Below, one piece after another: positions 19,350 to 38,160 of a stretch of DNA of 38,618 bases. Numbering within the stretch: the stretch's first letter is position 1; every line of letters starts with the position of its first letter. The notes below the pieces were generated by a model, which was not told the origin of the DNA, searched no databases, and was given only the letters and a program-made list of their open reading frames with translations. A program made the translations under genes and the position numbers. Origin of the DNA: Candidatus Pacearchaeota archaeon (GTDB lineage Archaea > Nanobdellota > Nanobdellia > UBA10117 > JAFCGI01); assembly GCA_017608235.1 (NCBI GenBank), contig JAFCGI010000007.1, positions 1-38,618 of the forward strand. Direction: 5' to 3'.

Positions 19350-19502
19350 ATGATTGAAGAATTAAAAATGCAGGAAACTGCTGAAACACCAGAAGAGGAA
19401 ACTCCAGCTGAAGAGGAATCTTCTGAAGAATCCAATGAAAACGAAGAGAAGCCAGAAGGGGAAGAAGAGGGAACGGAAGAAAGCGAAAAGGAAACTGAAT
19501 AA
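19350..19502 (+). CDS. Glu-rich acidic protein
   Basis: 50 residues, mostly Glu with Thr, Ser and Pro (MIEELKMQETAETPEEETPA...). Its C-terminal style is echoed at the end of the HNH gene that follows (KTPETPEGEEEEAE), perhaps through recombination or slippage. It may be a DNA-mimic or simply disordered. An interleaved terminator follows the stop. The region 19314-19330 before it (AAATGGTCGGTTATTAA) recurs with one change at 23071-23087. Confidence 0.5.
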   Translation: MIEELKMQETAETPEEETPAEEESSEESNENEEKPEGEEEGTEESEKETE

Positions 19503-19525: not shown

Positions 19526-19582
19526 CAACACACACTAAATCCCGCCTTTTCTTTGTGTGTTGAGGCGGGATTTTGATTTTTT
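19526..19582 (+). terminator. Intrinsic terminator with interleaved second hairpin
   Basis: AAATCCCGCCT (19537-19547) pairs perfectly with AGGCGGGATTT (19563-19573) and is followed by TGATTTTTT, a good intrinsic terminator. A second perfect stem, CAACACACA (19526-19534) with TGTGTGTTG (19554-19562), is interleaved: its 3' arm lies inside the terminator loop and abuts the terminator's 3' arm with no gap. Both stems cannot easily form together, so this has the layout of a terminator/antiterminator switch. Confidence 0.75.
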
Positions 19583-19587
19583 AATTT

Positions 19588-20256
19588 ATGTATAAAAACA
19601 AAGAGAAAGAAAAACAGAACAAAAAAAAATGGTATCAAAAAAATAAAAAAAAGGTAAAAGAAAAAATTAAGAAATGGCGTTTAAAAAATAGAGAAAAACA
19701 TAATAAATATAATAGACAATGGTACCAAAAAAACAGAGAAAAAATACTTCAGAAACAGAGAAAATATCGTCAGGAAAATAAAGGAAAGATGAAGATATTT
19801 GATAGAAAACGATATCAAAAGAACAAAGAAAAAAAAATAAAGCAAGGAATAATATATGAAAAAAAACGAAGAGATACAGATCCGAAATATCGTTTAGATG
19901 ACAATGTTGGATCTTATATTCGTCATAGTTTAAAAGGTAAAAAAGCAGGTAAAAGGTGGAAAATTTTAGTAAATTTTACATTAGAAGATTTAATGAAACA
20001 TCTTGAAAGTCAATTTGATAAAAATATGTCTTGGGATAATTATGGTAATTATTGGGTGATTGATCACATAAAACCAAGAAGTTTATTTAATTATACAACC
20101 CCAGAAGATCAAGAATTTAAAGAGTGTTGGGCGTTGAATAATCTTCAGCCATTAGAAAAAATTGAGAATATTAAAAAATCTAATCATTTTGATGAGAAGG
20201 AAGAAGGCGAGAAAACGCCTGAAACTCCAGAGGGAGAAGAAGAAGAAGCTGAGTGA
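19588..20256 (+). CDS. HNH endonuclease with Lys-rich DNA-binding repeats
   Basis: 222 residues. Residues 1-95 are repeated basic helices (WYQKNKKKVKEKIKKW, WYQKNREKILQKQRKY, RYQKNKEKK), a known DNA-binding arrangement in phage HNH enzymes. The HNH core is at about 150-200 (YWVIDHIKPRSLFNY ... ECWALNNLQPLEKIENIKKS), giving the DH, N and K/H positions. The last ~18 residues are acidic, similar to the upstream Glu-rich protein. It is a likely free-standing homing endonuclease. A ~400-base structured RNA region begins right after its stop. Confidence 0.75.
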   Translation: MYKNKEKEKQNKKKWYQKNKKKVKEKIKKWRLKNREKHNKYNRQWYQKNREKILQKQRKYRQENKGKMKIFDRKRYQKNKEKKIKQGIIYEKKRRDTDPKYRLDDNVGSYIRHSLKGKKAGKRWKILVNFTLEDLMKHLESQFDKNMSWDNYGNYWVIDHIKPRSLFNYTTPEDQEFKECWALNNLQPLEKIENIKKSNHFDEKEEGEKTPETPEGEEEEAE

Positions 20257-20263
20257 GAAGACG

Positions 20264-20606
20264 ATTATGGATCAATAGGTAATCCAGACGATTGGAAAAG
20301 CTCTCTCGGCTGTTAGGAGAGCTTTCGGAGAATTGATTTCTCCGTTGTGGGCAAGTGCTCTATATTGCCTACAACAGAGGAATTAGTCTTCTGTTCTGAG
20401 AAGGTTGAGTGCCACCAATGAATGTGGCTTTGGATAAGAGGTCGGCTCTTTTATCCGAGATATAACAATGGTTGAGAGTCCTACTAGTATTATGACTATC
20501 CTGTGATATTCATATACAAGGAGTAAGGTTTAAATGGATTAGCCCCCTACCATCTCCAAAAACACCTTCTTGGAACAGAGGAATTGAGTTTCCTCTTCTT
20601 GCAGTT
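20264..20606 (+). ncRNA. Candidate large structured RNA, no ORF
   Basis: No reasonable frame exists here, the G+C is higher than in the genes, and hairpins are packed end to end: AAAGCTCTC/GAGAGCTTT (20297-305 with 317-325), CGGAGAA/TTCTCCG (326-332 with 338-344), TTGTGGGCAA/TTGCCTACAA (345-354 with 365-374) and CAGAGGA/TCTTCTG (375-381 with 387-393) abut without spacer bases. Further stems are GCCAC/GTGGC (411-415 with 424-428), GGATAAGAG with CTC..TTATCC (432-440 with 446-456) and AGAGGAA/TTCCTCT (577-583 with 590-596). ACAGAGGAATT is repeated (375-ish and 575-ish). Terminators follow. It is comparable in style to large phage RNAs such as ROOL or GOLLD, but I cannot assign it to either. Confidence 0.65.
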
Positions 20607-20675
20607 AAACAAAAGCCCTTAACGGGGTTTTTGTTTTAGAAAAGGTCAGCGGAATTTCCGCGGGGCTTTTTTATT
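20607..20675 (+). terminator. Double terminator between lysis and early regions
   Basis: AAAAGCCC (20611-20618) can pair locally with GGGGTTTT or with GGGCTTTT at 20663-20670; the second also encloses a GCGGA/TCCGC hairpin (20649-20653 with 20657-20661). Both ends run into T-rich tracts (TTTTTGTTTT and CTTTTTTATT). These isolate the RNA region from the early promoter at 20681. Confidence 0.75.
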
Positions 20676-20680
20676 AACAC

Positions 20681-20709
20681 TTGACAGGGTTTAACAGGTG
20701 TTATAAAAT
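20681..20709 (+). promoter_or_regulatory. Strong sigma70-like promoter of the early region
   Basis: TTGACA (20681-20686), 17-base spacer, TAAAAT (20704-20709). RNA would start near 20716-20717, at the very edge of the structured leader. The start of the box, TTGACAGGGT, is shared with the promoter at 22592. Being right after a double terminator and before the replication initiator, it is the best candidate for the main early promoter. Confidence 0.75.
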
Positions 20710-20718
20710 GAAGATACC

Positions 20719-20792
20719 AGTGAAGACATTTATCGTTATTATATAATTTAGGATCTTAAATTATGCCCCCATGTCTTCACTGATGAGGGGGC
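20719..20792 (+). promoter_or_regulatory. Structured, interleaved mRNA leader
   Basis: The leader begins with AGTGAAGACAT (20719-20729), which pairs with ATGTCTTCACT (20771-20781), enclosing an 8-bp hairpin (ATAATTTA 20743-20750 with TAAATTAT 20757-20764). GCCCCC (20765-20770) pairs with GGGGGC (20787-20792) across the 3' arm of the first stem, so the stems are interleaved (pseudoknot or switch). GTTTCATTTATT follows. The initiator gene begins 20 bases later. Confidence 0.65.
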
Positions 20793-20812
20793 GTTTCATT
20801 TATTATGATAAA

Positions 20813-21523
20813 ATGTCAAACCAAGGATATGTAAAACTTCATAGAAAACTACAAGATAACCCTCTTTATAAAAAATCAAGTTATCTACATATTTGGATAC
20901 ATTTATTATTATCTTGTAATCATAAAGAGAAAGAAATCATTTGGAATAAAGAACTAATAAAAATAAAGGGTGGGCAGTTTATTACATCAAGAATAAAGAT
21001 CGCTGAAAAAACTGGTGTTCCAGAAACAACAATAGAAGATATCCTTAATTTCTTTGAAAGCCAACAGCAAATCCGACAACAAAAAACTACCAAGTTTCGT
21101 GTAATTACCATTAAAAAATGGAGTGAATACCAAATAGAAGAAGATATTCCGACATCAAAACCGACAACAGAGCGACAACAGAGCGACAACAGAGCGACAC
21201 AAACAAGAATGAATAAGAATGAAAAGAATGATAAAGAAGAGAGTGTACTCTCCCCAAAAGAAACAATGATATTATTTTTAGAAAACGAAGATAACTTTTT
21301 AAAAGTAGTAGATCACATAGTAGAAAAGAAGAGCGTCCAAAAAGATATCGCTTTAAGAGAGCTTAAAAAGTTTAAAGCATACTGGTCAGAACCAAACGCT
21401 TCAGGAAAAAAACAACGCTGGGAGCTTCAGAAGACATTTGAATTAAGCCGAAGATTAACAACTTGGTTTAGTAAGGTAGATCAATTTAAAGGTCAAAAGA
21501 AAATTAAAGTAGGAATAATATAA
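20813..21523 (+). CDS. DnaD-like replication initiator
   Basis: 236 residues from ATG 20813 (MSNQGYVKLHRKLQDNPLYK); an upstream in-frame start at 20771 lies inside the leader stem and is unlikely. The N-terminal ~100 residues are the winged-helix of phage replisome organisers (YVKLHRKLQDNPLY, GQFITSRIKIAEKTGVPETT, ITIKKWSEYQ). A Gln/Arg/Thr-rich linker (~residues 117-140) is encoded by direct repeats. The C-terminal half is helical (ALRELKKFKAYWSEPNASGK, RRLTTWFSKVDQF), as in DnaD/DnaB-type initiators that load the host helicase. It probably binds its own gene's repeats as origin. Confidence 0.75.
   Translation: MSNQGYVKLHRKLQDNPLYKKSSYLHIWIHLLLSCNHKEKEIIWNKELIKIKGGQFITSRIKIAEKTGVPETTIEDILNFFESQQQIRQQKTTKFRVITIKKWSEYQIEEDIPTSKPTTERQQSDNRATQTRMNKNEKNDKEESVLSPKETMILFLENEDNFLKVVDHIVEKKSVQKDIALRELKKFKAYWSEPNASGKKQRWELQKTFELSRRLTTWFSKVDQFKGQKKIKVGII
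21163..21231 (+). repeat. Iterons inside the initiator gene, candidate origin
   Basis: GACAACAGAGC is repeated three times without gaps (21163-21173, 21174-21184, 21185-21195) and continues with GACAC. Next come three AAGAATGA copies (21205, 21215, 21224) in A-rich DNA. Iterons followed by an A+T-rich stretch inside the initiator gene is the layout of lambda-type origins. The encoded linker is low-complexity, so the DNA rather than the protein may be what is conserved. Confidence 0.6.
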
Positions 21524-25519: not shown

Positions 25520-25520
25520 A

Positions 25521-25660
25521 TCTGAGTCGTTCCTTTCCTTAAGAGTATACTCAAGAGGTCATGGGCGACTCGGAGAGAACATAATAGGGCTTCCTTCACT
25601 TAACCTTTAGTTCTATGATTAAGCCCAGTGCCACGCCATAAGCAGAAGGCAAAGCGTGGC
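25521..25660 (+). ncRNA. Structured RNA leader, three hairpins
   Basis: Three consecutive stems: TCTGAGTCG (25521-25529) with CGACTCGGA (25566-25574), containing GAGTATACTC (25543-25552); GGGCTT (25587-25592) with AAGCCC (25621-25626); GCCACGC (25630-25636) with GCGTGGC (25654-25660). It is G+C-richer than its surroundings and begins right after the NinB-like gene. It could be a regulatory leader or small RNA. A GTG at 25628 lies inside it, but the likely start of the next gene is ATG 25670. Confidence 0.55.
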
Positions 25661-25669
25661 GATAATAAT

Positions 25670-25978
25670 ATGAATGAATATAATTTAAAAATAGAACAAT
25701 ACAAACAAAGGATTATAAATGCTTTTCAAAAAAACAATTTATTTATTAAAAGATTAAGGAAAGCGAGTGATGAAAAAGGTATTTTTATATATCATTCATT
25801 GGGAACAGAATACCAAAGAACATATAGAAAATTAGTAGAAAAATTAAGTGAAAGTGAATATCTTTATCAGAGAATTAAAAAGAATTATAATGTTGATTTT
25901 ATAGGGATTGAAAATGAAGAAGATTTTAAAGATTCGCTTGATAGAATTATTATAGAAGCAAAAAACAGAATTAAATGA
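25670..25978 (+). CDS. Hypothetical helical protein
   Basis: 102 residues from ATG 25670; the open frame extends to a GTG at 25628 that falls in the RNA leader. The protein is Lys/Tyr-rich and helical (YNLKIEQYKQRIINAFQKNN, YRKLVEKLSESEYLYQRIKK). Function unknown. Its end overlaps the next start. Confidence 0.6.
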   Translation: MNEYNLKIEQYKQRIINAFQKNNLFIKRLRKASDEKGIFIYHSLGTEYQRTYRKLVEKLSESEYLYQRIKKNYNVDFIGIENEEDFKDSLDRIIIEAKNRIK

Positions 25979-26101: not shown

Positions 26102-26872
26102 ATGAAAACATACACAATCAAAAAACCAAAAGACCTAGAAAAGTTCAAAGATGATTATGGATATAATGTAGATGGCAATCTTGAATTAGAATGTGGCATT
26201 GATATTGAGGGTAGATTAAGGGCAGATGGATATATATTGAGTAAAGCTGGATACTCTATTGAAGCTGGAGACTTCATTGAAGCTGGAGACTTCATTAAAG
26301 CTGAAGACTTCATTAAAGCTGGAGGCTCTATTGAAGCTGGAGGCTTCATTAAAGCTGGAGGCTCTATTGAAGCTGGAGACTTCATTGAAGCTGGATACTC
26401 TATTAAAGCTGGAGGCTCTATTAAAGCTGGAGGCTCTATTAAAGCTGGAGGCTCTATTGAAGCTGGAGGCTCTATTGAAGCTGGAGGCTCTATTGAAGCT
26501 GGAGACTTCATTAAAGCTGGATGCTCTATTGAAGCTGGAGACTCTATTAAAGCTGGAGACTTCATTGAAGCTGAAGGCTCTATTGAAGCTGGAGGCTCTA
26601 TTGAAGCTGGAGACTCCTGTGGAATATCAGCAGGACTATCAATTATTTGTAAAACAACTTTATCATTTGGTTTAAACGCATATGCTGGAATAAAAACTTG
26701 GGGAGAAGCAACAGATGAAGACAAAACAATAACTTGCGGAAAACTATTAAAAGGGAATATAGAATATGGTATTTTAAGAGAAACAGGATTATCAGATGAA
26801 CCAGAAACAGGCAAAAAAGTAAAGATTAAGCTAGATAATAATCAAGTCGTAGAGGGAATAATAATAAAATAA
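26102..26872 (+). CDS. Hexapeptide-repeat solenoid protein
   Basis: 256 residues. After a short lead-in (YTIKKPKDLEKFKDDYGYNV), residues ~55-170 are about 20 tandem 6-residue units of the form [S/F]I[E/K]AG[G/D], e.g. GGSIEAGGSIEAGD. Six-residue left/right-handed beta-solenoid units of this kind are related to hexapeptide and bactofilin-like folds. The last ~80 residues are a non-repeat domain ending in KKVKIKLDNNQVVEGIIIK. It could be a binding scaffold or a DNA-mimic-like solenoid. It is one of two solenoid proteins in this region. Confidence 0.7.
   Translation: MKTYTIKKPKDLEKFKDDYGYNVDGNLELECGIDIEGRLRADGYILSKAGYSIEAGDFIEAGDFIKAEDFIKAGGSIEAGGFIKAGGSIEAGDFIEAGYSIKAGGSIKAGGSIKAGGSIEAGGSIEAGGSIEAGDFIKAGCSIEAGDSIKAGDFIEAEGSIEAGGSIEAGDSCGISAGLSIICKTTLSFGLNAYAGIKTWGEATDEDKTITCGKLLKGNIEYGILRETGLSDEPETGKKVKIKLDNNQVVEGIIIK
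26252..26614 (+). repeat. 18-bp tandem coding repeats
   Basis: The DNA consists of near-perfect 18-base units (GGCTCTATTGAAGCTGGA type, with TTC/ATT and GAA/AAA variants) encoding the solenoid. The exact third bases suggest recent expansion and contraction by slippage or recombination. It produces long open frames in other frames that are not genes. Confidence 0.85.
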
Positions 26873-38051: not shown

Positions 38052-38135
38052 GTTAAGTCGCTGACCATGGGTGGTTGAATGTTGCCCCTGGTACTTACAA
38101 AGTTTTCAGCGACTTAACAGTACCAGGTGCGACAT
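38052..38135 (+). promoter_or_regulatory. Interleaved double hairpin before the scaffold gene
   Basis: GTTAAGTCGCTGA (38052-38064) pairs perfectly with TCAGCGACTTAAC (38106-38118). ATGTTGCCCCTGGTACT (38079-38095), inside that loop, pairs with AGTACCAGGTGCGACAT (38119-38135): 16 of 17 positions pair, with one mismatch and one G-U. The 3' arms abut with no spacer. The two stems cannot both form fully, so this looks like a two-state switch feeding into the terminator at 38138. Confidence 0.75.
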
Positions 38136-38137
38136 TG

Positions 38138-38160
38138 AGTCACTTATAGTGGCTTTTTTT
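38138..38160 (+). terminator. Intrinsic terminator before the scaffold gene
   Basis: AGTCACT (38138-38144) pairs with AGTGGCT (38148-38154, one U-G) over a 3-base loop and is followed by a run of seven T. With the upstream switch it could set how much of the portal-operon RNA continues into scaffold and capsid genes. Confidence 0.8.

Follow-up and report, generated by a model that had tools for sequence, protein, structure and literature searches.

The DNA analysed here (the window, 38,618 bases in full) is flanked by an exact direct repeat of 114 bp, one copy at each end, and corresponds to IMG/VR record IMGVR_UViG_3300033148_002826; it is therefore very probably a complete phage genome. The same sequence is contig 22 of a 1.2-Mb, 93% complete bacterial bin. 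Genomes of the bin's class measure 0.3-2.1 Mb, which suggests a host of the patescibacterial type, although finding a phage contig in a bin does not prove which host it infects. The larger genes are all encoded on the + strand (Table 1). At 514 nt, the gap between the HNH gene and the helicase loader gene (20257-20770) is longer than any other non-coding gap of the genome, and it holds no ORF of at least 60 aa on either strand.

Table 1 Features at and around the structured gap (p as given by the folding calculation).
Feature	Coordinates	Strand	Sequence or description	Measure
Capsid, tail, lysis genes	to about 19.1 kb	+		
HNH-type endonuclease gene	19588-20256	+	free-standing, 222 aa, motif W-D-N-Y-G-N-Y-W-V-I-D-H ... 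N-N-L-Q-P-L	
Closing stem, 5' strand	20253-20258	+	GUGAGA, extendable to 20261	MFE and centroid
H1	20262-20294	+	imperfect hairpin, CGAUU-A-UGGAU(CAAUAGGUA)AUCCA-GAC-GAUUG	
H2	20297-20325	+	9-bp hairpin, AAAGCUCUC/GAGAGCUUU	-12.1 kcal/mol
H3	20326-20344	+	perfect 7-bp hairpin, CGGAGAA/UUCUCCG	-9.0 kcal/mol
H4	20344-20375	+	11-bp hairpin, GUUGUGGGCAA/UUGCCUACAAC	-14.9 kcal/mol; p 0.98
H5	20373-20395	+	9-bp palindromic hairpin, AACAGAGGA/UCUUCUGUU; alternative partners H3 or H8	-8.9 kcal/mol
P1, 5' strand	20399-20405	+	AGAAGGU, inverted repeat, pairs with 20564-20570	p 0.97
H6	20411-20428	+	hairpin, GCCAC/GUGGC	p 0.99
H7	20429-20459	+	13-bp hairpin with GU pairs, UUUGGAUAAGAGG/CUCUUUUAUCCGA	
H9	20491-20514	+	hairpin, UAUGA.UAUC/GAUA.UCAUA	p 0.86
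P1, 3' strand	20564-20570	+	ACCUUCU	
H8	20577-20596	+	palindromic hairpin, AGAGGAA/UUUCCUCU; repeats AACAGAGGAAUU of H5	
Closing stem, 3' strand	20597-20602	+	UCUUGC	MFE and centroid
Terminator 1	20607-20636	+	13-bp stem, GC core, U-rich 3' arm	-15.1 kcal/mol
Terminator 2	20637-20673	+	GCGGAAUUUCCGC core, then U6	-16.1 kcal/mol
Sigma-70-like promoter	20681-20709	+	TTGACA-17-TAAAAT (11/12); starts the next transcription unit (replication side)	
DnaD-like helicase loader gene	20771-21523	+	first gene after the RNA	PHROG 2514, E 8e-31
DnaD-like helicase loader, Sak4-like annealing protein, exonuclease, NinB-like protein	from 20.8 kb	+		
Terminase (32.4-34.8 kb) and portal-like genes	32.4-36.8 kb	+		

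The gene preceding the gap is best read as a free-standing phage endonuclease gene. Its product shows no Pfam domain at E<0.001, no recognised RuvC domain and a weak PHROG match, and its relatives (30-43% identity) occur in ten IMG/VR viral contigs, where the flanks are mostly open frames on one or both sides. A small acidic ORF (19352-19501) and the tail of the HNH protein (20196-20253) have similar Glu/Pro-rich sequences, perhaps a trace of HNH gene insertion. On the other side of the gap, the true start codon of the helicase loader is probably 20814 rather than 20771. In its leader (20720-20795), CAGTGAAGACAT pairs exactly with ATGTCTTCACTG; an alternative pairing, GCCCCC/GGGGGC followed by a T-rich tract, is attenuator-like. 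The sequence CTTGACAGGGT is found in exactly two copies (20680 and 22591), each ahead of early-side genes, and the pair may represent an early promoter family of the phage.

Folding of the complete gap gives -174.8 kcal/mol with a z-score of -8.37, the lowest among all gaps of the genome. When the terminators are excluded, the folding energy of the RNA proper (20253-20602) is -123.0 kcal/mol, compared with -92.0 +/- 5.2 for dinucleotide shuffles (z -6.0), and none of 100 shuffles folds as well. G+C content reaches 42% over the feature (300-nt windows) compared with the 32% average. The + strand folds better against its shuffles (z -7.6) than the - strand (z -5.6), and its fold includes GU pairs; the better + strand fold makes RNA a likelier folding molecule than DNA. 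This bears on a DNA-level reading, in which the inverted repeats would serve as a replication origin or as a recombination or packaging site near the replication genes. Although the DnaD-like helicase loader gene follows immediately and hairpins of the region could extrude in single strands, the region contains no iterons, the GC skew keeps its sign across it, the scanned proteins include no integrase and the terminase is distant, and we consider a DNA-level role improbable.

The RNA unit is delimited by pairing of its two ends (up to 9 bp), with its start inside the HNH stop codon. Hairpins H2-H5 abut and each beats essentially all shuffles; the other hairpins, too, individually outperform nearly all of theirs. 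H2-H5 are followed in order by H6, H7, H9, H8 and the two terminators, with P1 closing a 3' domain that comprises H6, H7, H9 and a weakly structured core. An earlier sequence-only reading had described about 340 G+C-rich bases without an ORF, four abutting hairpins at 20297-20393, at least three more hairpins and a double terminator, and all of these are borne out, with the four hairpins now placed at 20297-20395. The span it proposed, 20264-20606, is itself significantly folded (z -5.4, 0 of 200 shuffles as good); its start shifts about 10 bases upstream, to the closing stem. A tRNA-like interpretation of the ends, built on the closing stem and the AAUAGGUA loop of H1, was dropped as the T-arm is absent.

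The palindromes H3, H5 and H8 are related and able to pair with one another, AACAGAGGAAUU being common to H5 and H8, and the fold therefore has competing states. With limited-span folding of 20257-20606 the hairpins are separate (-96.5 kcal/mol). A span of up to 60 nt partially fuses H3, H4 and H5 (-98.9 kcal/mol), a span of up to 200 nt joins the three into one long hairpin (-115.7 kcal/mol), and with unlimited span H5 pairs with H8 (-120.8 kcal/mol). Over the full sequence the pair probability of the H5-H8 segment pairing is 0.99 versus 0.00 for local H5; the local hairpins H5 and H8 are not the minimum-energy state. These predicted states are too close for prediction to choose between them, and co-transcriptional rearrangement would be their natural, if unproven, reading.

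Both terminators are of the rho-independent type and stand in tandem, and the palindrome of terminator 2 resembles H3, H5 and H8 in sequence. The promoter-like site of the next unit begins 8 nt past terminator 2. Upstream of the RNA no promoter better than chance was found, and a further terminator is seen at about 19538-19585, between the lysis genes and the RNA region.

Strong structure occurs elsewhere in this genome. A whole-window fold scan ranks the region among the top few, alongside a pseudoknot-like piece at 38.03 kb and a leader at 25.5 kb, and several further gaps in the phage genome are structured too, which may mean that intergenic DNA in this phage tends to be structured in general. 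The pseudoknot-like RNA (38054-38160) lies upstream of a scaffold-like acidic ORF and has the best fold z (-7.2) in a 150-nt window scan; its helices UAAGUCGCUGA/UCAGCGACUUA (11-12 bp) interlock with AAUGUUGCCCCUGGUACU (38079-38096)/AGUACCAGGUGCGACAUU (38120-38137; 17/18 pairs), a terminator follows, and the piece has no Rfam match. The leader (25520-25670, fold z about -3.9 to -5.6) has the NinB-like gene on one side and a small ORF on the other, and forms three hairpins, GAGUCG.../...CGACUC, GGGCUU/AAGCCC and GCCACGC/GCGUGGC. At 26102-26872 an ORF with many tandem short repeats (roughly I-E/K-A-G-G/D-x-I, beta-helix-like) coincides with a strong minus-strand fold signal, which is probably a by-product of the repeat.

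Rfam 15 gave no family match at the gathering threshold for the whole window, and permissive thresholds (up to E 10 for 20250-20690) gave only scores at chance level (eukaryotic miRNA, PyrR, FasX-like). Against phage and plasmid records, blastn returned either no match or scattered 35-39 nt pieces confined to the terminator part. It found no relative in 56 near genomes, in 378 from the window's class or in 371 from its phylum; across the genomes of the order, class and phylum, the one match (30 nt) lies antisense inside an alanyl-tRNA synthetase gene and was rejected as chance. Scans for exact patterns, taken from four places in the RNA for IMG/VR and from one for GTDB genomes, also retrieved no relative: the non-self matches either lay within coding sequence, as far as they were checked, or gave no extension under covariance models. 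Single-sequence covariance models of the 5' hairpins (R1) and the 3' domain (R2), run over 359 and 93 genomes and phage loci, yielded no credible second member. Near copies are thereby excluded over a wide range, structural relatives only within the genomes sampled. Among IMG/VR records the helicase loader has no relatives and the terminase one, weak. Sak4 relatives were found on six contigs that have only replication/recombination genes in common with the phage (Sak4, exonuclease and, in one, the NinB-like gene), and the RNA is absent from all six within the stretches examined.

ARAGORN at default settings detected no tRNA or tmRNA in the window. Matches to intron-containing tRNAs appeared only at relaxed thresholds that returned at least 66 candidates, and no tmRNA was among them. 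Three tRNA-like pieces with a long middle insert were observed, two in this phage (21528-21646 and 28946-29072) and one in a Sak4-related phage (contig L016, 10165-10375). They have a terminal 7-bp stem, a D-arm-like GsGGAAnnGTAA and a T-arm-like GGTGnAARTCC (T55 -> G), are missed by default ARAGORN and by Rfam, and, for the two searched, have no DNA match in the phage collection. Judged by these motifs, they are possibly a new class of tRNA-like RNA.

GOLLD and ROOL are large ornate RNAs that are often carried by phages or prophages (PMC12286853). The candidate RNA resembles them in being phage-borne and non-coding, with many helices, a long-range closing stem and an end near a terminator, but differs in having no Rfam match at any reported threshold and no known relatives. 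At about 350 nt it is presumably also shorter than these families. No GOLLD, ROOL or OLE covariance model of Rfam 15 matched the window (gathering threshold) or 20250-20690 (to E 10). The sequence-only reading had likewise been unable to match the RNA to ROOL or GOLLD, and HEARO and other families are equally absent from the Rfam results. Its proposal of a new large structured RNA stands as regards structure, given the fold z, the + strand preference, the GU pairs and the tandem terminators; a new family does not follow, no homolog having been found. The adjacency to an HNH gene that it had noted is real, but the link is weak: within the stretches examined, the RNA is missing beside all ten phage HNH relatives. 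Adjacency weighs little because this is an ordinary free-standing HNH gene whose relatives lack such an RNA, and it may be incidental even though the HNH stop codon overlaps the closing stem.

The region is a real, strongly structured, non-coding and so far orphan element. We tentatively favour, at somewhat less than even confidence, a structured, non-coding phage RNA (20253-20602, about 350 nt) that would form the 3' end of the rightward lysis/HNH transcript. For a stand-alone RNA count the fold z-scores, the + strand preference, the G+C enrichment, the individual hairpins, the closing stem, and the terminators and downstream promoter that delimit the 3' end. Against it count the lack of a homolog and of an own promoter, the terminator at 19538-19585 and the other structured gaps.

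The same anatomy fits a cis-acting 3'-UTR or insulator, in which the hairpins would keep exonucleases off the 3' end of the HNH/late mRNA and join the terminators in blocking late transcription into the replication module. Ordinary 3'-UTR hairpin/terminator clusters of phages also sit between gene modules and end in tandem intrinsic terminators. The position between late and early modules, the strong promoter just downstream and the closing stem that starts at the HNH stop codon agree with such a role. However, two terminators are enough for termination, a 3' block does not require the long-range helices P1 and the terminal stem, and the candidate, with its long-range pairing, is much longer and more structured than such a cluster would need to be. 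The roughly ten helices that precede the terminators in 350 nt would appear to exceed what termination needs. We lean slightly to the stand-alone RNA because its helices far exceed terminator needs and its two ends are paired. The 3'-UTR or insulator role, a reasonable possibility that we rate short of probable, is nearly as likely since no better-than-chance promoter precedes the RNA and other gaps are structured.

That the RNA belongs to, or is left over from, an HNH-linked mobile element that came in together with the HNH gene, such as an intron or a HEARO/omega-RNA-like guide, is quite unlikely. The RNA directly adjoins the HNH gene, whose stop codon it shares in the closing stem, and HEARO/omega RNAs of IscB-type HNH nucleases are likewise structured RNAs beside an HNH gene. 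Those, however, lie upstream of an IscB-like RuvC+HNH gene, whereas the candidate lies downstream of a 222-aa HNH protein in which no RuvC part is recognised; group I and group II introns and HEARO are missing among Rfam matches even up to E 10, and the ten HNH relatives lack the RNA. Equally unlikely is a functionless untranslated stretch grown by local inverted duplications, a reading in line with the lack of relatives and with the similar palindromes in H3, H5, H8 and terminator 2 but opposed by fold z-scores beyond all shuffles and by the rarity with which compact phage genomes retain 500 idle bases.

If the element is a stand-alone RNA, its transcription would occur by read-through from the late/HNH side, as suggested by the absence of a strong promoter in front of it. 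Folding would be co-transcriptional, with H2-H5 forming first as local hairpins, after which the structure would rearrange: the H5 segment would switch its pairing to H8, and the 3' domain would be closed by P1. The two tandem intrinsic terminators would release the RNA, and RNase III may cut the long near-perfect helix, freeing a stable product. Most likely the RNA would act in trans while the phage infects its host, serving as a structured binding platform or a decoy; any trans function is a finely balanced proposition that tips slightly towards doubt. More doubtful still is the wider proposal of a new family of bistable phage structured RNAs of about 350 nt, in which the H5 segment would switch between H3, itself and H8, possibly belonging to phages of small-genome (patescibacterial-type) hosts and acting in trans.

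As a new phage RNA the element is a credible candidate, plausible but unproven; with a single sequence behind it at present, it amounts to a good lead and falls short of a discovery. To our knowledge, large structured phage RNAs such as GOLLD and ROOL are few and their roles open. The candidate offers a compact object for probing, and the class would grow broader with a further, unrelated RNA from a phage whose contig was binned with a 1.2-Mb small-genome bacterium.
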